Shown one piece after another: positions 1,669 to 58,076 of a stretch of 64,000 nucleotides of DNA. The stretch is taken from the NCBI RefSeq assembly GCF_000771405.1, contig NZ_JDUI01000009.1, forward strand, positions 1-64,000, read 5' to 3'. Numbering within the stretch: the first letter of the stretch is position 1; every line of letters starts with the position of its first letter. The stretch is from Bifidobacterium pullorum DSM 20433 (GTDB taxonomy: Bacteria; Actinomycetota; Actinomycetes; Actinomycetales; Bifidobacteriaceae). The notes below the pieces were generated by a model, which saw nothing but the letters and a program-made list of their open reading frames with translations, was not told the origin of the DNA and made no database searches. A program made the position numbers and the translations under genes.

Positions 1669-3481
1669 CGTTCCCCTCTTCCACCGGCACACCGGCCATG
1701 CAGCCGACGAAGCCGCCTGCCCACTCCGTGCTCAGGAACCGCGCGTCATACCGGTCGAGCGCCACGCCCGCGGCGCAACCGTCCTCGCCGGCGGCGAGGC
1801 ACGCGGCCACCTCGCGCACGTCGCCGTCATAGGCGAACAGCGTCAGCACATTGCGGTGCAGCAGCAGAGCCACACCCGCCATCCCGGGCTGCAGCGGGCC
1901 ATACTCATGCTCCTCAGCCTGGCCGGCCCGCACGATCGTGCAGGTCACCCGACGGCTGGATTCGGCATCGGCCGCCGACTCCACACGCACCGTGACATGA
2001 TGCGTGGAATTCTGACGGATGATCAGCGTGCCGCAAGCGGGCACGGGGATCACGCAGTCGTCGGACGTGACGCGGGCGTAACGCACGCCGCGCTCGGCGC
2101 GGATAATCTCCACGGCCGTGCCATCCACATCCATCACCGGGCGGGCTTCATCCGCCGACACCGGATCGGACACGGACGCGCCGATGGCGACGCGCGCGGC
2201 GCGATCGTCCTCGACCAGCACCATGTCGGCGGGCGGGAACTGCCCGGCCGGAACATCCTGCGCGATCGCAATGCGCTTGGGCAGGCGGCCCAGACCGGGG
2301 GCCACCACCGGCCACCCCGGATCGCCCTGCGGGGTGGAGGGGGCGCCGCCGCCATCCAGCTTCCAATCAGCGGGGTTGTGCTCCCAGGTCAGCGGGGCGA
2401 TGAACGGTTCGCGCCCCAGATAGCTCAGCAGCTCGCCGGGGTCGGCGCCCTTGGTCTCGCGCACGCCGAGGCTCACGATCCACCAGCCGAGCCGCGGGTG
2501 ATGGATCAGGTCGGTGTGGCCGACGCACTGCACCTGCTCGGCCAGGCCCAGCTGGCGGTGGGTCAGGATCGGGTTCTTCTTGTTCGCATGGAACAGGCGG
2601 CGGTGGGTGTCCAGCACGCAGCGCTCGTTGTCGCGCGGCGTGGGGATCGGCGTTCCGCCGGCCTGGACGTCACGCTCGAACTCCCCCATGGCCGCCTTCA
2701 GCCCGTTCGGGGCGAACACGCGCATGACCATCTCGCTGTGCTCGAAGCTGGTGCCGCCCTCGGCGGTCATCAGATACACGTAGTCGTCGATCCGGTACAG
2801 GTGCGGCCCCTCGGCCCACACCGCCTCGACGCCGTATCCGCGCCAGATCACGGTCTTGCCGCAGCCGGCCGCCTCACCATCGTCGACCAGCGTCCAAGTC
2901 TCGGGATCGATGCGCTGCGTCCAGACCTCGGTCTGTCCCTCCCACTGCGGGTCGACGGCGGGGCGGGTCTGCGTCCAGTACACCGAGCCGTCGGCGTCCT
3001 CGAAGACGTCCGGGTCGATGCCTTCGGCGCCGTCGATCCAGTACGGGCCGGACCACGGGCCCTCAAGCCGTTCCGCGGTGATGGCGAAGTTGCCTTCGGC
3101 ACGGGCCGCGGCCTCGAGCTCGTCGTCCGACACCCCACCGCGGCGCGCCGCATCGGCGTCGATGCGGGCGATGGTGCAGACGATCACGTACTTGCCGCCG
3201 ACCTTGCGCAGCGTCGGCGCGTACACGCCGCCGGAATCCTCGACGAACGGGATGAGCAGGCGGCGCGCCATCGCCTCGTCGATGGCGTCGGCGAGGTGCG
3301 TCCAGCGGCCCAGGTCGTCGGAGACGTGGATCGGCAGACCGGGGACCAGCTCGAACGAGGAGTTCACCATGGCGATCCGGTTGTTGTCGGCATCCCACAT
3401 CCAGGTCGGGTCGGGGTACATGCCGGTCAGGACCGGGTTGGTGATGGTGGTGATGGTGGAAGGGGTAGTGGTCATCGTCAT
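1637..3481 (-). CDS. Glycoside hydrolase family 43 (arabinofuranosidase/xylosidase type)
   Basis: About 614 residues with no signal peptide, so probably intracellular and acting on imported oligosaccharides. The N-terminus carries the GH43-type NPVLTGMYPDPTW block, whose Asp is the expected catalytic base of the five-bladed propeller; further propeller motifs (YWTQTRP, VWAEGPHLYR) follow over residues 100-330. The last ~200 residues look like the beta-sandwich domain common in beta-xylosidase-like members. Start: ATG 3481 or ATG 3475 both follow AAGGA; an upstream extension to 3628 lacks coding character. The gene precedes the MFS gene and follows xylA on the same strand, so the likely role is releasing xylose or arabinose. 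Exact linkage specificity cannot be read from the sequence. Confidence 0.85.
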   Translation of the reverse strand: MTMTTTPSTITTITNPVLTGMYPDPTWMWDADNNRIAMVNSSFELVPGLPIHVSDDLGRWTHLADAIDEAMARRLLIPFVEDSGGVYAPTLRKVGGKYVIVCTIARIDADAARRGGVSDDELEAAARAEGNFAITAERLEGPWSGPYWIDGAEGIDPDVFEDADGSVYWTQTRPAVDPQWEGQTEVWTQRIDPETWTLVDDGEAAGCGKTVIWRGYGVEAVWAEGPHLYRIDDYVYLMTAEGGTSFEHSEMVMRVFAPNGLKAAMGEFERDVQAGGTPIPTPRDNERCVLDTHRRLFHANKKNPILTHRQLGLAEQVQCVGHTDLIHHPRLGWWIVSLGVRETKGADPGELLSYLGREPFIAPLTWEHNPADWKLDGGGAPSTPQGDPGWPVVAPGLGRLPKRIAIAQDVPAGQFPPADMVLVEDDRAARVAIGASVSDPVSADEARPVMDVDGTAVEIIRAERGVRYARVTSDDCVIPVPACGTLIIRQNSTHHVTVRVESAADAESSRRVTCTIVRAGQAEEHEYGPLQPGMAGVALLLHRNVLTLFAYDGDVREVAACLAAGEDGCAAGVALDRYDARFLSTEWAGGFVGCMAGVPVEEGNGDIERRCGEC

Positions 3482-3530
3482 TGATCCTTGGGAGTGGCGG
3501 CCTGCGGCCGGTGATGGACGTTCTGGCTTC

Positions 3531-3571
3531 GAAACTTTCATACAGCGTTGTACCGAACAGTTGAAACTTTC
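3531..3571. promoter_or_regulatory. Pair of GAAACTTTC palindromic boxes upstream of the GH43 gene
   Basis: The odd palindrome GAAACTTTC occurs at 3531-3539 and 3563-3571, 32 bp (about three helical turns) apart, 50-90 bp upstream of the GH43 start. Boxes of the form CGAA-N-TTCG are bound by LacI-family xylan/xyloside repressors in other Actinobacteria, so a substrate-responsive operator pair is a reasonable inference. No LacI gene lies in the window. Confidence 0.5.
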
Positions 3572-3586
3572 GGCCCGCTGAAACGG

Positions 3587-3620
3587 GAGAACGCCCACGG
3601 GTTGCCCCGCAGGCGTTCTC
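3587..3620 (-). terminator. Hairpin between xylA and the GH43 gene
   Basis: Nine-base-pair stem GAGAACGCC / GGCGTTCTC with a 16-nt loop. It lies between xylA and the GH43 gene, next to the operator-like boxes. There is no good T-run, so it may be a processing or attenuation hairpin rather than a full terminator. Confidence 0.45.
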
Positions 3621-3677
3621 TCGATCAATCGGAAGGAAAAGGAGAAAGGAGTAAGAATAAATGACCGGCGATGGCCG

Positions 3678-3707
3678 CCGGCCGGACCTTACCGCATGTC
3701 CGGCCGG
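3678..3707 (-). terminator. Probable xylA terminator
   Basis: Perfect 10-bp stem CCGGCCGGAC / GTCCGGCCGG with a 10-nt loop, 41 bp past the xylA stop. On the minus strand it is followed after about 12 nt by a T-rich stretch. It probably separates xylA transcripts from the GH43 gene. Confidence 0.6.
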
Positions 3708-3747
3708 TGGCGTTCACCGTTTGGCACGGGCCCTGGGCCCGGCATCA

Positions 3748-5094
3748 TCACGCCTCGGCGAGGGCGTCGATGATGTAGTTGTTGATCGTGGCCTTGACGG
3801 ACTCGAGGTGATCCGACTTGGTGGCCTCGATGAGCTTGGCCTGCGGGATGTCGAGAGCGTACTCCTCCAGGGAGGCCAGCGTGGCGGTGCCGTCCTCGAT
3901 GGTGGCGCCGATGCCGGAGTCGTAGGAGGCATAGCGCTCGGCCTGCAGGTTCTGGATGAACTTGTCCTCGTGCATCTTCGCGGCGACCAGCAGGCCGGCG
4001 GCGAAGGTGTCCATGCCCGCGATGTGCGAACGGAACAGGTCCTCAGCGTCGAAGGAGGTACGACGCGGCTTGGCGTCGAAGTTCAGGCCGCCGTGGGGGC
4101 CGATCTGGCCCTCGTCGATGACCTCCCACATCACGGTGGTGGTCTCCATCAGGTCGGTCGGGAACTCGTCCATGTCCCAGCCGATGAGCTTGTCGCCCTG
4201 GTTCGCGTCGAGCGAGCCGAGCACGCCGGCCTCACGGGCCGTGCGAATCTCATGCTGGTAGGTGTGGCCGGCCAGGTTGGCGTGGTTGCCCTCGAGGTTC
4301 AGCTTCATGAAGTCGATGTCGTAGGTCTTCAGGAAGGCGATGGCGGTGGCGGCATCGAAGTCGTACTGATGCATCGTCGGTTCCTTGGCCTTCGGCTCGA
4401 TCAGGAACTGGGCGTCCAGGCCGATCTCCTTGGCATACTCATGGCACATGTGGAAGAACTTGGCCATGTGCTCCTGCTCACGCTGCATCTGCGTGTTCCA
4501 CAGGTTCTCGTAGCCTTCGCGGCCGCCCCAGAACACATAGTTCTCGGCGCCCAGGCGCTTGGCGATCTCGAGGCTGTGCTTCAGCTGGCCGCCGGCATAG
4601 GCGTAGATGTCGGCGAACGGCGAGGTGGAGGCGCCGGAGACGAAGCGCGGGTTGGTGAACAGCGAGGAGGTGTTCCACAGCAGCTTGACGCCGGTGGCCT
4701 TCATGTTCTCCTCGATCTTGTCGACGACCTTGTCCAGGTTGGCGTTGGTCTCACGCAGGGTGTCGCCTTCCGGAGCGATGTCGCGGTCGTGGAAGCAGAA
4801 GTACTCGGCACCGAGCTTGGTGAAGAACTCGAAGGCGTAGTCGACCTTGGCCAGAGCCTCGTCGAGCGGGTTGGAGTACTTGCCGTACCACGGACGGTGA
4901 GCGGTGCCGGTGCCGAACGGATCGACGAGCTCCTGATCGAAGGTGTGCCACCAAGCGACGCCGAAGCGCAGCCAATCCTTCATCTTCTTGCCGGCGACGA
5001 CGCGATCGGCGTCGTAGTAATGGAAGGCCAGGCCCTCCTGCGGTCCCTTCTGGCGACCGACGTATTCGATCTTGTCAACATCCCACAGACCCAT
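3748..5094 (-). CDS. xylA: Xylose isomerase
   Basis: Converts D-xylose to D-xylulose (EC 5.3.1.5) in the cytoplasm; in bifidobacteria xylulose enters the fructose-6-phosphate phosphoketolase route after phosphorylation. At 448 residues it has the length of the long (class II) xylose isomerases. The catalytic pair is visible in FCFHDRD (His102, Asp105); metal-ligand blocks include [23 protein letters not shown] and [10 protein letters not shown]. The start is set by AAAGGAG seven nt upstream. It has its own strong promoter (-35 TTGACA) and a downstream hairpin, so it seems to be transcribed separately from the GH43/permease pair although functionally linked. No xylulokinase gene is present in the window. 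Confidence 0.97.
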
Positions 5095-50048: not shown

Positions 50049-50822
50049 TCAGACCACGCGACGGATGGCGTACCCGCCGGTGAACACCCAGGAGACGGGC
50101 GCGGTGTCGGTACCGGAGCTGGTGGTCATGGCGTTCATCACCATGCCGTTGCCGATGTAGATGGCGGCGTGGCCGGCGTTGGCGATGATATCGCCGGGCT
50201 GCGCCTCGGCCAGGCTGCCCACGGGGGAACCGACGCTCATCATCGCACCGGAGGTACGCGGCAGCGAAACGCCGAACTGGGCGAACACATACTGCACGAA
50301 GCCGGAGCAATCCCAGCCGGACGGCGAGGTGCCGCCGTACACGTACGGATAGCCCTTGAACTGCAGCGAGTACTGCGCGATCGCCGAACCGGTCGCGCTG
50401 CCGGCCGGCGCGGACACCGTCGACGTCTGGGCGGCGGAGGTGTCGGTCTCACTGGAGGAGGAGGTGACGGACTCACGATACGAGGAACGGCTCGCGGCGG
50501 CGGCCTGCTGCTGCGCGGCGGCGGCAGCGGCCTGCTGACGGGCCTGCTCGGCGGCCTCGGCCTCGATCTCGGCCGGGGACTTGGTCTGCGGGACATCAAG
50601 GCTCTCGATGCCGCCCCAGTCGGCACCGCCGTCCACCTCGGTGGAGGTGGATTCGGAGAGCAGATCCTTGCGAACGGTGGTCACCTTGGGGAAGGAACGG
50701 GTGGAGGTGGTCGCCTCGCTCTGATCGGCGTCCGCCGAGGCGAGGGGCACAACGGCGACGGACAGCAATCCGGCCGCAACGAAAGCGGTGGCAATCGAAA
50801 CAGTCTTCTTTACGATACTCAT
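50049..50822 (-). CDS. Secreted NlpC/P60 peptidoglycan hydrolase
   Basis: About 257 residues: signal peptide (1-31, KKTVSIATAFVAAGLLSVAV, cleavage near ASA-DAD), a linker with RSFPKVTTVRKDLL and WGGIESLDVPQTKS, an Ala/Gln-rich coiled coil (about 80-110), a Ser/Thr stretch, and the C-terminal NlpC/P60 domain with catalytic Cys in WDCSGFVQY and His in GHAAIYIGNG. It cuts D-gamma-glutamyl-diamino-acid bonds outside the cell. The N-terminal half is clearly related to that of the next gene. Nine nt before the ATG is TACAAT (50832-50837), pointing to a very short leader. Confidence 0.92.
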   Translation of the reverse strand: MSIVKKTVSIATAFVAAGLLSVAVVPLASADADQSEATTSTRSFPKVTTVRKDLLSESTSTEVDGGADWGGIESLDVPQTKSPAEIEAEAAEQARQQAAAAAAQQQAAAASRSSYRESVTSSSSETDTSAAQTSTVSAPAGSATGSAIAQYSLQFKGYPYVYGGTSPSGWDCSGFVQYVFAQFGVSLPRTSGAMMSVGSPVGSLAEAQPGDIIANAGHAAIYIGNGMVMNAMTTSSGTDTAPVSWVFTGGYAIRRVV

Positions 50823-50891
50823 CGTTGCCCGATTGTACTGAATCACGTGTACAAAAACCCTTCCGCAACAGCCCGATCAGCGAATACGGCA

Positions 50892-50923
50892 GCGGGCGCG
50901 TCCCTATTGGGGAACACGCCCGC
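50892..50923 (-). terminator. Hairpin after the first CHAP gene
   Basis: GCGGGCG (50892-50898) pairs with CGCCCGC (50917-50923), with an inner TCCC/GGGA stem. It lies between the CHAP gene and the NlpC/P60 gene on the minus strand, without a T-run. Confidence 0.6.
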
Positions 50924-50956
50924 ATCCCATGACCGGCATCGATCAACGACGCCGAA

Positions 50957-51775
50957 TCAGAAGTGAATGTACTGGTAGTTGCCGGTATCGGAGAACACAC
51001 GGCTGGAGCAGAACCCGCCGGCGAATCCGGAGCCCATCTCGGAGACGCGCACGCTGCCGTCCGCATAGATCTCCTCGACGATCGCCACATGGCCGTACCC
51101 CCAGGAGGACCCCGCCTGGCCGCCCTGGAAGACCATGATGTCGCCCACCATGCGCGGCGTGCTGTCGACCCAGTAGCCCATGGCACTGGCGGAGGCGGCC
51201 CACTGCGCGCCGTTGCCGAAGAACGAACCCACGGGCAGACCCAGCTGGTGGCGGCGCTCATACGCCCACCAGGTGCAGTTGCCGCCGGCGTAACGGTTGC
51301 CGACATCCCCGATCTCATGGTTCGGGTTGAAGCCCGCGGGAGCGATGCTGTAGTCGAGGGAGGCGCCCCCGGCCAGACCGCTATCGGAGCTGGTGCGCAC
51401 CTCGGAACGGCTGGCGGCTGCCGTGGACGACGACCTGGAGGCGGTGGCGGCGGCAGCGGCCTGCTGCTCGGCCTGGCGCTTGGCCTCCTCCTCGGCGCGC
51501 TTCTGCGCGGCTTCGGCGTCCTTCTCGGCCTGGGACTTGGTCTGGGGCACGTCAAGCGACTCGACCCCGCCCCAGTCGATGTCGTCCTCGACGGACACGG
51601 ACGATGCCTCGGCGAACAGGTGTTCGCCGCCTTCGATCACGCCGGGGAACGACCGGACGGAGGTCACGGCATTGGACTGCTCACCGTACGCGGCGGCAGG
51701 CAACACGGCAAAACCCACAACGCCGACCATGCAGGCGACGGCGGCCGAAACACACGTCTTGGTAAAGCTCTTCAT
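50957..51775 (-). CDS. Secreted CHAP-domain peptidoglycan hydrolase
   Basis: About 272 residues: signal peptide (1-31), the same VRSFPGVIEGGEHLF and WGGVESLDVPQTKS linker as the NlpC/P60 neighbour, a charged coiled coil rich in Glu/Lys/Ala (about 80-110), a Ser stretch, then a CHAP domain with catalytic Cys in GGNCTWWAYERR and His in YGHVAIVEEI. CHAP enzymes are amidases or endopeptidases of peptidoglycan. Its C-terminal domain is very close to that of the gene upstream (FNPNHE.GD.GN, LGLPVGS, MGYWVD.TPR). TATCGT (51785-51790) lies nine nt before the ATG. Confidence 0.92.
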   Translation of the reverse strand: MKSFTKTCVSAAVACMVGVVGFAVLPAAAYGEQSNAVTSVRSFPGVIEGGEHLFAEASSVSVEDDIDWGGVESLDVPQTKSQAEKDAEAAQKRAEEEAKRQAEQQAAAAATASRSSSTAAASRSEVRTSSDSGLAGGASLDYSIAPAGFNPNHEIGDVGNRYAGGNCTWWAYERRHQLGLPVGSFFGNGAQWAASASAMGYWVDSTPRMVGDIMVFQGGQAGSSWGYGHVAIVEEIYADGSVRVSEMGSGFAGGFCSSRVFSDTGNYQYIHF

Positions 51776-51869
51776 CGGAACTTCACGATACCATCACGTC
51801 CGCCCATGAACGGACGCCCACCTGCGCGGCTGGGCCGCGATACCGCACGACACGCCGTAAGGGTGGAAA

Positions 51870-52919
51870 TCAGTAGTGGATGAACTGGAAATCGCCCGGG
51901 TTCGTATACGTGCGGGAGTAGGTCTTGCCGTTCATCACGGCGCCGCACTCGGAGGTGACGATCGAACCGTCGGGATTGATCTGCTCGACGATGGCCACAT
52001 GGCCGTAGTAGGCGTCGGAACCGGCCTGGCCGGCGGCGAACACCATGATGTCGCCCACATGGCGGGGGGTGTTGTCCACCCAGTAGCCCAAGGCGCGGGC
52101 CGAGTTGGCCCACATGTTGCCGTTGCCCATGTAGGAGCCGACCGGCAGGCCGAGCTCGTGACGGCGCACGTACACCCACCAGGTGCACTGGCTGAACGAA
52201 TAGGCGTTGCCGCTGTCGCCGGTGGCGTGGTTGGGGTTGAAACCCTCGGGCAGCGCGCCCTGATCCCGATCCATCAGCGTGGCGACCTGCGGATTGTTCG
52301 CCAGCGAACGCGACATCTGCTCCACATCGAGCTGGGAGGCGTCGCCGGTGGCGTGCCATTCGCCTTCGCTGGAAACCTGCACGGTATCGGCGAGAGGCTG
52401 CTCGTCCTGCGCGGCCTGATCCGGCTGCGGAGCGGCCTGGGACTCCTGGTCCTGCTGATCGCCCGACTGGGCCTCCGCCACAGCCTGGTTCACCTCGCTC
52501 AGCGGCGTACGGTCCTGCGAACGGGAGACCACGTCCGTGGTGATGCGCTTGAGCTGGGTGGTGGTTGTGGGGTCGGCATCGGCCAGGATGCTGCCTTCGA
52601 TGTCCTCGGGGCCGGCCAGGGCCACGGCGGTGGCGGCGGTGCCCACGAGCGCCGCCAGCGATGCGGACGTAAGGATATGGGAGCGACGTTCGGCGGCGCG
52701 CGTCGCCTCACGCAACGCACGACGGGTCTGGGGGGCGACCTCGTTCAGTCGATCGATGACGGCCTGGTCGAGGCCGACCATGGCGCCATTGGACTGCGCC
52801 ATCTGCACCGCGCGCACGGCCTTGGCGCTGTGGGCGCCGCTGGTCGCGGAAAACAGCGAACGGGAGGTACAAATGGACTGACGTGAGCTGTTGGCTGCCT
52901 TATGGGCTGCATGCCTCAT
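51870..52919 (-). CDS. CHAP-domain cell-wall protein with N-terminal anchor
   Basis: About 349 residues. It has no simple signal peptide: a basic, Arg-rich start of ~75 residues precedes one membrane segment (SLAALVGTAATAVALAG, about 88-104), so it may be membrane-anchored. A Gln/Asp-rich linker with acidic stretches follows, then a C-terminal CHAP domain with Cys in SQCTWWVYVRR and His in YGHVAIVEQI, closely matching that of the neighbouring gene. The start follows AAGGAG at ten nt. It is the first of three consecutive wall-hydrolase genes on this strand. It probably acts in septum splitting or wall turnover. Confidence 0.9.
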   Translation of the reverse strand: MRHAAHKAANSSRQSICTSRSLFSATSGAHSAKAVRAVQMAQSNGAMVGLDQAVIDRLNEVAPQTRRALREATRAAERRSHILTSASLAALVGTAATAVALAGPEDIEGSILADADPTTTTQLKRITTDVVSRSQDRTPLSEVNQAVAEAQSGDQQDQESQAAPQPDQAAQDEQPLADTVQVSSEGEWHATGDASQLDVEQMSRSLANNPQVATLMDRDQGALPEGFNPNHATGDSGNAYSFSQCTWWVYVRRHELGLPVGSYMGNGNMWANSARALGYWVDNTPRHVGDIMVFAAGQAGSDAYYGHVAIVEQINPDGSIVTSECGAVMNGKTYSRTYTNPGDFQFIHY

Positions 52920-54423: not shown

Positions 54424-54678
54424 ATGAAAATCGCTCCGATCATCGACCCCGGCGCACGCAAACCGGCGCCCAAACCCGTGCGCGTCGATTTGCGCAAGGC
54501 GTTCGTCATCGGCACGACGCTGTGGCTGCTGGCCACCATCGTCTGCCTGGTGCTACAGGCAGCGGGGCTGGTTTCGGTCAAGGTGACGCTGGTGTGCGGC
54601 ATCGGCGTCGTCATCGGATTGATGATGCTCGTCTGGGAGCACTTCGACCGCTGGGACTACCGCCGACTGGGCGAATGA
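54424..54678 (+). CDS. DUF2530 small membrane protein
   Basis: Protein of 84 residues: a basic Pro-rich start (APKPVRVDLRKAF), two hydrophobic segments (about 28-47 and 52-70, WLLATIVCLVLQAAG and VTLVCGIGVVIGLMML) and a charged end WEHFDRWDYRRLGE. This fits DUF2530, an actinobacterial family of unknown role often near serC or SenX3-type genes. TAGAGT (54412-54417) lies six nt before the ATG, so the gene may have its own leaderless transcript. It ends six bp before the convergent kinase stop. Confidence 0.7.
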   Translation: MKIAPIIDPGARKPAPKPVRVDLRKAFVIGTTLWLLATIVCLVLQAAGLVSVKVTLVCGIGVVIGLMMLVWEHFDRWDYRRLGE

Positions 54679-54684
54679 CGCCGG

Positions 54685-55962
54685 CTAGCGCGCGACCGGC
54701 AACGACAGCGTGAACGTGCTGCCCTGACCCACGCGGCTCCACACCGACGCGGCGCCGTGGTGCGTCAGCGCCACGTGCTTGACGATGGCCAGCCCCAGTC
54801 CGATGCCGTCCGCAGTGCGCTCGTTCTGGTTGCTGCCGCGGTAGAACCGCTCGAATACATGCGCCTGCTCCCGCTGCGGGATGCCGCAGCCGCGGTCGAT
54901 CACCCGGATCTCGACCTTGTCGCCGTCCTCGCTGGCTCGTACGGTCACGCTCACGGCACCGCCATCATCCGAATACGCCACGGCGTTATCCACCAATTTG
55001 GCGACGGCGGTGCGGATCTGATCCGCGTCCCCATGCACCTTCAGATCGACATCACCCGTAAGCGTCAGCTGAATAGACCGGTCCGCGGCGGTCGGGCCCG
55101 CCGCGGCGACGACCGCCGCCAACGGGTCACGCAGCGCGATGGCGTTCGCAGCGGACGGCGTGATGGGCTCCTGCGCCTTGATCAACAGCAGCAGATCCGA
55201 CACCATGCGGTTCAGATGGCCGCAGGCCGCACGAACCTGTCGGGCGTCACGCTCGATGCGTTCCCGGCTGGAGTCGCCCTGTTCCAGGGAATCGGCGAGC
55301 GCCATCAGCGCCTCCGTGGGTTTCAGCAGCTGCTCGGAGACGTTCGTGATGAACGAATCGCGTGTCTGGGCGAACCGGATGACATCGCTCAGGTCCTCGA
55401 CCATCACCACCACGAACCGCTCGCTGATGCGGCCCACTGTGACCTTCAGCCAATTCGGACGGCTCACCGATCGGCGGCGACGGCTCTCCTTGGCCTCGTC
55501 GCCCAGATTGTCGAACGCGTGCTCGTACTGCCAGGGGGTATGGGTCTCCACGTTGAACTGCACGCGGCCGCCACTCGAACGGACATGATGGATCTCATCC
55601 AGTACGCGTTCGTTGGCGATCGCGTCGTCGACGACCACGCCCAAGGTATAGGCCGCGGGGCTGGCGCGGACGACCTCGTCATCCTCATCCACCACGATCG
55701 ACGACCCCGGGATCAGCGACAGCAGCAGCGCCGTGGAATCCTCCAGATCGTCCTGCGTCTGTTCCTCCGGCTGTCGGCGGCGGGGCAGGACGCGCTGCAC
55801 CTCGGCCTCCAGCCTGCTCACCGGCGAAGCCCCGCCGAACAGCTTGGCCACCACCGGGCTGATGCGGTCCATCAGGAAGAATCCGACCAGTACGGCCACC
55901 GCGATGGCCACGATGCCGAACGCCACGAAGATGAGCACACTGGGGTCGTTGAATTGAGGCAT
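54685..55962 (-). CDS. SenX3-like sensor kinase lacking the phospho-acceptor histidine
   Basis: About 425 residues. One N-terminal membrane segment (~8-30), a PAS-like region (~75-200), a dimerisation helix, then a complete HATPase domain: N box LVDNAVAYSDDG (~324), G1 DRGCGIP (~356), G2 GIGLGLAIVKH (~386). This is the SenX3 layout, and phoU and gpmA lie next to it as in other Actinobacteria. But where the H box should read SHELKTP, it reads SEQLLKP: Glu210, encoded by GAG at 55333-55335, replaces the His. No response-regulator gene is adjacent. It may bind ATP but cannot autophosphorylate in the usual way; it could be a phosphatase or regulatory pseudokinase. No ribosome site is evident before ATG 55962. 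Confidence 0.85.
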   Translation of the reverse strand: MPQFNDPSVLIFVAFGIVAIAVAVLVGFFLMDRISPVVAKLFGGASPVSRLEAEVQRVLPRRRQPEEQTQDDLEDSTALLLSLIPGSSIVVDEDDEVVRASPAAYTLGVVVDDAIANERVLDEIHHVRSSGGRVQFNVETHTPWQYEHAFDNLGDEAKESRRRRSVSRPNWLKVTVGRISERFVVVMVEDLSDVIRFAQTRDSFITNVSEQLLKPTEALMALADSLEQGDSSRERIERDARQVRAACGHLNRMVSDLLLLIKAQEPITPSAANAIALRDPLAAVVAAAGPTAADRSIQLTLTGDVDLKVHGDADQIRTAVAKLVDNAVAYSDDGGAVSVTVRASEDGDKVEIRVIDRGCGIPQREQAHVFERFYRGSNQNERTADGIGLGLAIVKHVALTHHGAASVWSRVGQGSTFTLSLPVAR

Positions 55963-56051
55963 AGGGTCATTCTCGCACAATCGGGCCAAAATGAATGACA
56001 GGTAAACCATCCGATGAATTTTCAGCCAACGGCGGGTGGCCATTGACTACG

Positions 56052-56125: not shown

Positions 56126-56806
56126 ATGCGCGTTATTTTCGACGAGGAGCTCAAAGCCGTTGCCGATGACCTCGATCGCATGGTGCAGGATGTGCGCAAG
56201 GCGATCAACGGCGCGGGCAACGCGCTGCTGAACTCTGACCTTGAAGCCGCCCAGGCCGTCATCGACGGCGACATCGAGATCGATGCGCTCGAGTCGAGCG
56301 TCATCGACCAGTGCGTCAAGCTGCTGGCCAAGCAGAACCCCGTGGCCACCGATCTGCGCGTGGTCGTCTCCACGCTGCGTCTGGCCGCCACCTTCGAACG
56401 CATGGGCGATCTGGCCCGCCACATCGCGGAGACGGCCCGCCGCACCTATCCGCAGTCCCCGCTGACCGATGACGCCAAGGCGCTGTTCACCGAGATGCAG
56501 GAGTTCCTGACGATGACCGCCGACCGCATGGTCGCCATGCTGCAGGACCGCAACACCGCCATCGCCGAGCAGGTGATCGTGGACGATGACAAGCTCGACG
56601 CCCTGCATCAGAAGACCTTCGACCTGATGCTCTCCGACGAGTGGCAGGGCACCAAGCAGCAGCTCATCGATCTGGTGCTGTTGGGCCGCTACATGGAACG
56701 TCTCGGCGACCACGCCGTTTCGGCGGCCCGCCGCGTGGTGTTCATCGTCTCCGGTTTCGATCCGTCCAAGGAACCGTCCCGCGACGAGGACGGCAGCGTC
56801 TACTGA
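56126..56806 (+). CDS. phoU: Phosphate uptake regulator PhoU
   Basis: All-helical protein of 226 residues with two PhoU three-helix bundles. Each has the metal-binding E(R)xxD pattern: FERMGDLARHI near 92-102 and YMERLGDHAVSAA near 189-201. PhoU links the Pst phosphate transporter to the PhoR/SenX3 sensor at the membrane and restrains the phosphate-starvation response. It is divergent from the SenX3-like gene; no pst genes lie in the window. The start is ATG 56126 with GAAAGG upstream. A strong terminator follows 32 bp after the stop. Confidence 0.93.
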   Translation: MRVIFDEELKAVADDLDRMVQDVRKAINGAGNALLNSDLEAAQAVIDGDIEIDALESSVIDQCVKLLAKQNPVATDLRVVVSTLRLAATFERMGDLARHIAETARRTYPQSPLTDDAKALFTEMQEFLTMTADRMVAMLQDRNTAIAEQVIVDDDKLDALHQKTFDLMLSDEWQGTKQQLIDLVLLGRYMERLGDHAVSAARRVVFIVSGFDPSKEPSRDEDGSVY

Positions 56807-57335: not shown

Positions 57336-58076
57336 TCACTTCTGGCCCTGGGCGGCGACGGCGGCGGCACCGGCGGCGGCGGCCTCCGGGTCCAGGTACT
57401 CGCCACGCGGCTTGATCGGCTTGAAGTTCTCATCCAGCTCGTACAGCAGCGGGATGGCGGTCGGGATGTTGACCTTGGCGATCTCCTCCTCCGACAGGCC
57501 GTCGAGCATCTTGACGATGGCACGCAGCGAGTTGCCGTGGGCGGCGATCAGGACGGTCTTGCCGGCCTTGAGCTCCGGGATGATCTCCGACTCCCAGTAC
57601 GGGGTCACGCGCTCGACCACGTTGGCCAGGGCCTCGGTCTCCGGGACCGGGTCGCCGGCGTAACGCGGATCGTTGTTCTGGGCGTACTGGTCGTTCGGAT
57701 CGATCTCCGGCGGCGGGGTGGCATAGGAGCGGCGCCAGATCATGAACTTCTCGTCGCCGTACTCCTCGCGGATCTCGGTCTTGTTCTTGCCCTGCAGAGC
57801 GCCGTAGTGACGCTCGTTGAGACGCCAGTTGCGCTTGACGGGGATCCACAGGCGATCGGCCTCGTCAAGGGCGATGTTGGCGGTGTTGATGGCACGACGC
57901 AGCAGCGAGGTGAAGACGATGTCCGGCAGGACGTTCTTCTCCTTGAGCAGCTGACCGCCGCGCTTGGCTTCCTCGACACCCTGCTCGGTCAGCGGGACGT
58001 CGACCCAGCCGGTGAACTGATTGGTTTTATTCCATGCGCTCTGTCCATGACGGAGCAGTACTAGTTTGTAAGTCAT
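57336..58076 (-). CDS. gpmA: 2,3-bisphosphoglycerate-dependent phosphoglycerate mutase
   Basis: Glycolytic enzyme of 246 residues interconverting 3- and 2-phosphoglycerate. The catalytic His is in [12 protein letters not shown] (residues 5-16), the general acid in [14 protein letters not shown] (Glu near 88) and the second His in [10 protein letters not shown] (~183). An Ala-rich tail ([13 protein letters not shown]) follows the usual end. It sits beside phoU and the SenX3-like gene as in other Actinobacteria. The ATG has no ribosome site; TAGACT (58083-58088) lies six nt upstream, suggesting a leaderless mRNA. Confidence 0.96.

Follow-up and report, generated by a model that had tools for sequence, protein, structure and literature searches.

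The window analyzed here is a stretch of 64,000 nucleotides from Bifidobacterium pullorum DSM 20433 (contig C38 of an assembly with 38 contigs and 2.1 Mb). On its minus strand, at 54685-55962 with the ATG at 55962, lies a gene for a SenX3/PhoR-like protein of 425 aa, referred to below as the pseudokinase. It is flanked on one side by phoU, with gpmA beyond, and on the other by serC and a small DUF2530-like gene. The features of the locus are as follows:

54424-54678, plus strand: gene for a DUF2530-like membrane protein of 84 aa, convergent with the pseudokinase gene (Pfam 22.6 bits, slightly below the cut-off of 25.5)
54685-55962, minus strand: pseudo-histidine kinase gene, 425 aa, with orthologs compared in 145 genomes
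54694-55131, minus strand: ATP-binding (CA) domain, residues 278-423 (HATPase_c; AlphaFold2 model)
54985-54999, minus strand: N box KLVDN, residues 322-326, with Lys322 (54997-54999) for the first Asn and with Asn326 retained
55177-55389, minus strand: DHp-type two-helix region, residues 192-262 (AlphaFold2 model; HisKA match below threshold)
55318-55344, minus strand: degenerate H box NVSEQLLKP, residues 207-215, with His replaced by Glu210 (55333-55335), the acid by Gln211, and Thr by Lys214
55393-55740, minus strand: PAS-like domain, residues 75-190 (AlphaFold2 model), with the family-specific residues T140, R168, N170, and W171
55840-55944, minus strand: single N-terminal transmembrane-type helix, residues 7-41 (AlphaFold2 model)
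55992-56019, no strand assigned: PHO-box-like triple repeat TGAAT-N6-TAAAC-N7-TGAAT in the gap between phoU and the pseudokinase gene (score 14/15)
56126-56806, plus strand: phoU, divergent neighbor of the pseudokinase gene (TIGR02135 161.4 bits against a cut-off of 130.25)
57336-58076, minus strand: gpmA, conserved neighbor beyond phoU (gpm match in 18/21 SenX3 loci outside the family)

No response regulator gene adjoins the pseudokinase gene in its neighborhood. An antisense open frame of 413 aa (window 54757-55998, plus strand) spans most of the gene and probably reflects codon usage at high G+C. Elsewhere on the minus strand (window 50049-52919), three adjacent genes probably encode secreted proteins, whose C-terminal parts, as judged by eye, resemble NlpC/P60 or CHAP cell-wall hydrolases. 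The nearest of four named loci in a scan of close relatives, which may not include the records closest to the window genome itself, belongs to Bifidobacterium pullorum subsp. gallinarum (pseudokinase protein 83% identical). The matches listed in the other families of the order share 31-43% identity with it.

Orthologs of the pseudokinase were found in 96 of the 112 genomes searched in the genus, the gene being absent from 16 (G012, G013, G025, and G081-G093), and the search of the family (189 genomes) added 49 carriers in other genera. The resulting alignment includes 145 genomes, one per species (96 from the genus and 49 from other genera). Window residue 210 is Glu, encoded by GAG (ctc on the plus strand at 55333-55335), which confirms the claim of an earlier note on this DNA that Glu stands in place of the phosphorylated His of the H box; none of the 145 genomes has His in this column. 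The same note had proposed to check whether Glu is conserved across the genus, and this holds in part: Glu is the commonest residue (116 of the 145 genomes), but Gln (13), Arg (7), Asp (3), Val (2), Asn (2), and Thr (2) also occur. A special role for Glu210 is thus unsupported, and that of an essential phospho-mimic was rejected as a rule, as 29/145 genomes carry another residue. By the alignment, the loss of His is old and shared, with Glu common and not required.

Three further catalytic positions are altered. The acid at H+1 is replaced by Gln in 137/145 genomes and is Glu or Asp in none, whereas at H+4, where the window has Lys, Thr is kept in one genome and Asn in four. The Thr counterpart at H+4 serves phosphatase activity in HisKA kinases. 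The first Asn of the N box is Lys in 141/145 genomes and Asn in none. At the same time, N326, D356, G358, G360, F370, and G388 are conserved in all 145 genomes, with the G1 and F boxes, the glycine of the G2 box (G388), and the second Asn of the N box retained throughout. The ATP-binding boxes had been described as intact, which is correct for these pocket residues but not for the first N-box Asn, which is Lys322 in the window. ATP-lid residues that are fixed in PhoR, e.g., R at column 380, are missing from the pseudokinase family. Two extra phoU-linked copies (L269 and L270, with Leu and Lys in column 210) have the first N-box Asn; their assemblies, G169 and G167, are small and only 68 and 85% complete. 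The His, E(+1), T(+4), and first N-box Asn are intact in 35/35 His-bearing paralogs examined within the family (30 best matches and 5 others) and in 21/21 SenX3 proteins from outside it (20 selected in the order's other families and 1 more).

Domain searches give a similar picture. The window protein matches HisKA with 18.5 bits, under the Pfam gathering cut-off of 26.9, and only 25/53 family members match HisKA at all (best E 0.0018), while HATPase_c is matched in 53/53 members (window E = 2.4e-27). The altered positions can be compared with those of an engineered kinase: the EnvZ variant H243A/D244A/T247A/N343K is described as built to abolish all catalytic activity, and N343K as a kinase knock-out (PMC8971529). 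In our alignment, H243, D244, T247, and N343 of the K-12 EnvZ correspond to window residues 210, 211, 214, and 322, and N347 to residue 326. The suggestion of a non-phosphorylating kinase-like protein beside PhoU is thus upheld at the level of sequence, with four catalytic positions changed in the 145 genomes, except for the few that have Thr or Asn at H+4.

The refuting cases raised in the earlier note, a sequencing error at 55333-55335 or another conserved His in the dimerization helices acting as acceptor, both fail. The former is contradicted by the lack of His in all 145 genomes. As for the latter, column 252 has His in 79/95 genus sequences, the window protein having Arg there, while column 249 has His in the window but in only 34/95 genus sequences, and neither was accepted as an alternative phosphoacceptor. 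A sequencing error, or a senX3 leftover in decay, is hardly credible in general. The long stem branch (1.15) and the variability of column 210 could be taken in its favor; against it stand the missing His, the range of dN/dS from 0.05 to 0.30 for the whole pseudokinase in 14 close pairs within the genus, which indicates that the gene is under purifying selection (0-0.42 for the DHp region alone), and 11 residues that occur in at least 90% of the family but rarely in either comparison group. Of these 11 residues, four are in the PAS-like domain (T140, R168, N170, and W171), and two are catalytic replacements (Q211 and K322). Judged by these features, the family to which the window protein belongs is a family of pseudo-histidine kinases, neither a sequencing error nor a decaying gene.

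The AlphaFold2 model, built from 53 sequences (pLDDT 86, pTM 0.62), contains a single N-terminal helix followed by PAS-like, DHp-type, and CA domains, the domain names being our own reading. The helix probably has a membrane role, because its sequence is hydrophobic. Pfam PAS_9 matches the PAS-like domain in 5/53 members, weakly (best E 0.0085). Among the best solved structures, the fold matches to HK853 (Z 23.5) and DivL (Z 22.8; rmsd 4.0 over 219 residues) are effectively tied, and by sequence, too, DivL ranks with the nearest solved structures (E = 6.1e-20). The fold comparison is uninformative for residues 1-171, to which few matches extend.

Sites of response regulator specificity were taken from PDB titles, in which the interface mutants A268V, A271G, and T275M of HK853, with its His at H260, correspond to H+8, H+11, and H+15. 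In the 34 genomes that have both proteins, the entropy at these sites is 0 in PhoR and 1.19, 2.23, and 2.20 bits in the pseudokinase. Mean entropy is also higher in the pseudokinase than in PhoR for the DHp region (1.13 vs. 0.45) and the CA domain (1.22 vs. 0.88), whereas for the PAS domain it is nearly the same (1.44 vs. 1.47). Helix positions 204, 207, 208, 212, 215, and 222 are fixed or nearly so in both proteins. The predicted regulator-docking face of the pseudokinase has therefore lost constraint, in a DHp region that is looser overall; its predicted PAS side, by contrast, is not loosened relative to PhoR.

A scripted comparison found phoU divergent from the pseudokinase gene in 142/145 loci; of the three exceptions, G023 is divergent by coordinates, and G047 and G076 have phoU on another contig. 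The statement that phoU and gpmA keep their normal neighborhood around the window gene stands. All 21 loci examined from beyond the family have a His-bearing senX3 divergent from phoU, with regX3 on the same strand as the kinase gene; gpm is found in 18 of these loci and pstS in 4. The simplest reading is that the pseudokinase gene occupies the ancestral senX3 place and that regX3 was lost from it. In the tree, the pseudokinases (32 rows) form one clade beside the SenX3-like kinases (SH-aLRT 100). A possible duplication inside the family, by which its PhoR would be the duplicate of the pseudokinase, has a support of only 81, but an alternative tree that places PhoR and the outgroup together is likelier (p-AU 0.83). 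The best explanation is descent of the pseudokinase from a phoU-linked gene of the senX3/phoR type. Three loci of a sister genus (L212-L214, from G162, G163, and G164) have the order phoU, pseudokinase, pstS, with pstS directly after the pseudokinase gene, and no regX3 match was found in the fetched stretch; in G163, another pstS adjoins the canonical PhoR-PhoP (L223).

The canonical two-component system is encoded elsewhere in the window genome. Contig C6 (locus L125) carries a PhoR/SenX3 with a proper H box FVTNVSHELKTP, followed by PhoP/RegX3 and then by pstS, pstC, pstA, and pstB. This PhoR is 34% identical to the pseudokinase over residues 81-424. The proposed absence of RegX3 is therefore refuted by the genome search, which found the complete PhoR-PhoP-pstSCAB cluster on another contig. 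The related claim that the kinase-like protein has no partner regulator is true locally, where none adjoins the gene, but not genome-wide. Since the window genome keeps PhoR-PhoP, phosphate signaling there is not replaced by the Glu-bearing protein. The idea of signaling rewired around PhoU accordingly does not apply to this genome, with its normal two-component pair, but it fits the 50 of 145 genomes without a PhoP match. A complete senX3-regX3 pair, with gene numbers adjacent to those of pstS, pstA, and pstB, is also reported for B. longum (PMC7917626). The bifidobacterial PhoR-PhoP system shares the window genome with the pseudokinase and differs from it in having the complete H box, the adjacent PhoP, and the link to pstSCAB. 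In L225 (G023; 2238-4399), PhoR and PhoP are on opposite strands and do not form one operon. Three genomes (G007, G039, and G063) contain two closely similar pstB genes (90-93% identity to the query) approximately 4 kb apart, which suggests a doubled pst operon.

PhoP was identified in 78/112 genomes of the genus (79 matches at 1e-50 minus one 43%-identical paralog in G093) and in 97/189 genomes of the family. The genomes with the pseudokinase (n = 145) include 95 with PhoP and 50 with no PhoP match (18 from the genus and 32 from other genera), some of the latter being incomplete assemblies. On the tree of the pseudokinases, the absence of PhoP requires a minimum of 12 changes. The reverse situation, PhoP without the pseudokinase, was observed for 2/97 genomes (G170 and G184, 91 and 89% complete). 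By raw counts, Glu is found at column 210 in 88/95 genomes with PhoP and in 28/50 without it; a link between the loss of PhoP and the loss of Glu was unsupported after correction for shared ancestry (sign test on 10 independent pairs, median p 1). Eight genomes without PhoP have between 5 and 16 response regulators each, so that a partner regulator encoded elsewhere in them is conceivable. Both phoU and PstB are nearly universal in the genus (110/112 genomes each). The 16 genus genomes without the pseudokinase (G012, G013, G025, and G081-G093) also have neither PhoR nor PhoP; 14 of them retain phoU and 15 retain pstB, so that phosphate uptake apparently proceeds in them without any PhoR-type sensor.

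A PHO-box-like repeat in the gap between phoU and the pseudokinase gene was sought with the pattern TGAAY-N6-TGAAY-N7-TGAAY at a threshold of at least 13/15. Three of the 96 genus regions were dropped, as the locus had no divergent phoU or the gap length was out of range. The repeat was found in 64/76 regions from genomes with PhoRP and in 1/17 regions from genomes without it. Dinucleotide shuffles (20 per region) reached the threshold in 0.26 and 0% of cases, respectively, a figure that flatters the motif, since the pattern had been derived from these very regions. More weight attaches to the contrast between genomes with and without PhoRP, in which close relatives are nevertheless counted repeatedly. 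Upstream of phoR and pstS, the triple spacing was found on the sense strand in 0/30 regions each, and on the other strand in 1/30 pstS regions; with different spacings and strands, the number was 0 to 5 of 30; a two-unit GTTCA-N6-GTTCA is present in 20/30 pstS regions. In a B. breve study of PhoRP (Appl. Environ. Microbiol., 2012), PhoP reportedly binds at pstSCAB and phoU.

We consider a PhoU-linked, nucleotide-binding, non-catalytic membrane adaptor to be the best reading of the pseudokinase, with a probability of roughly 55%. The phoU neighbor, the PAS-like region, and the nucleotide pocket have been retained, while the transfer chemistry and the conservation of the regulator face have been lost; most plausibly, therefore, the protein still meets PhoU and acts by binding, perhaps by storing PhoU, by delivering it to Pst, or by responding to the nucleotide level. 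PhoU is the presumed partner because of the synteny and the behavior of SenX3 and PhoR. Pi sensing by SenX3 is described as dependent on its PAS domain, and the kinase as being shifted to phosphatase by purified PhoU1 together with Pi (PMC12301784). In the proposed mechanism, the pseudokinase would perform no phosphotransfer. It would sit at the membrane, where its PAS/CA side would bind PhoU, as is thought for SenX3 and PhoR, and nucleotide binding would set its shape. The pseudokinase would retain or position PhoU and so control how much of it reaches other targets, which would be the canonical PhoR in genomes that have one and perhaps also the Pst transporter. Where a species has PhoRP, PhoP might act through the PHO-box-like repeat to adjust phoU, and perhaps the pseudokinase gene, as a feedback.

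Several observations restrain the adaptor reading. The Pi sensing of M. smegmatis SenX3 is reported to need neither the Pst system nor membrane localization of SenX3 (PMC12301784), so that the roles proposed for Pst and for the membrane are less secure. The entropy raised across the whole DHp region counts against it, because positions beyond the regulator face vary as well. The change to Lys322 may reduce ATP binding as such, since DivL, in which the first N-box Asn is also missing, binds an ATP analog weakly; nor is this change universal, given the Asn of L269 and L270. The retention of phoU in 14 of the 16 genus genomes without the pseudokinase implies that PhoU can work without it. A bolder reading, considered rather unlikely, is a two-component sensor converted to a stand-alone phosphate/adenylate gauge, in which ATP or ADP in the pocket and Pi-loaded PhoU on the PAS side would set Pst uptake directly via PhoU with neither phosphotransfer nor a response regulator. 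If this were true, the pseudokinase would be the remaining PhoU-linked sensor in lineages without PhoRP.

Other ways of working without the His were also weighed. Mixed dimers with the canonical PhoR could alter its kinase/phosphatase balance, as proposed for a ChrS pseudokinase and HrrS. We regard this as unlikely: the pseudokinase and PhoP do co-occur in 95/145 genomes, and native ChrS and HrrS are reported to heterodimerize in two-hybrid tests (PMC9491836), but the remaining 50 genomes have no PhoP match, several DHp positions fixed in PhoR differ in the pseudokinase, and the same source reports no significant heterodimers for truncated ChrS (PMC9491836). The lack of PhoP in 50/145 genomes equally burdens a model drawn from DivL, in which the DHp region would bind a response regulator (PhoP or another) and the state of the protein would be relayed to another kinase such as PhoR. 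DivL is close to the window protein by both sequence and fold (E = 6.1e-20 and Z 22.8) and is likewise without the His; nevertheless, it keeps the H+1 Glu and the H+4 Thr, which the pseudokinase family does not, and the regulator-facing positions that vary in the pseudokinase are invariant in PhoR of the same 34 genomes, which makes the DivL model quite improbable. The invariance of N326, D356, G358, G360, F370, and G388 in 145/145 genomes might point to a CA domain that, although its own His is absent, acts as a protein kinase on another target, e.g., PhoU or the His of PhoR in trans. This is very doubtful given the Lys at the first N-box Asn in 141/145 genomes (Asn in none), a change described as removing kinase activity in EnvZ (PMC8971529), and the loss of PhoR-fixed ATP-lid residues such as R at column 380. 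The PhoU-linked adaptor is the preferred reading.

The pseudokinase is widespread (96/112 genomes) in a genus much used for probiotics, and the His-bearing sister present in many of these genomes provides a built-in control. The family makes testable a role of PhoU on a sensor kinase beyond the switching of phosphotransfer. As the pseudokinase resembles active SenX3/PhoR by similarity alone, counts of two-component systems in bifidobacteria may wrongly include it. A search of the titles and abstract beginnings of open-license PMC literature found no earlier report of the family. Natural bacterial pseudo-histidine kinases are few in the literature searched, DivL being the main example, with a laboratory-evolved ChrS variant and plant receptors in addition.

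Among known systems, the pseudokinase can be compared with SenX3/PhoR, the Pi-sensing kinase of Actinomycetota, with DivL, and with the engineered EnvZ. It shares with SenX3/PhoR the order of the PAS-like, DHp, and CA domains (by the model) and the location divergent from phoU and near gpm. Unlike SenX3/PhoR, it has lost the His, the H+1 acid, the H+4 Thr, and the first N-box Asn, has no RegX3 alongside, presents a variable regulator-facing surface, and is predicted to have one transmembrane-type helix. DivL of Caulobacter, with Tyr550, is likewise a histidine kinase fold without the phosphorylated His and with the first N-box Asn replaced; it is described as lacking kinase and phosphatase activity, as binding DivK~P, and as binding an ATP analog weakly (PMC4211667). 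DivL keeps E(+1) and T(+4), both of which have been lost from the pseudokinase family, and the latter, unlike DivL, has no conserved regulator face and is linked to phoU. The EnvZ quadruple mutant is altered at the same four positions, including the identical change of Asn to Lys; it is, however, a laboratory construct, whereas the changes in the pseudokinase are natural and found in 145 genomes, few of which keep Thr or Asn at H+4.
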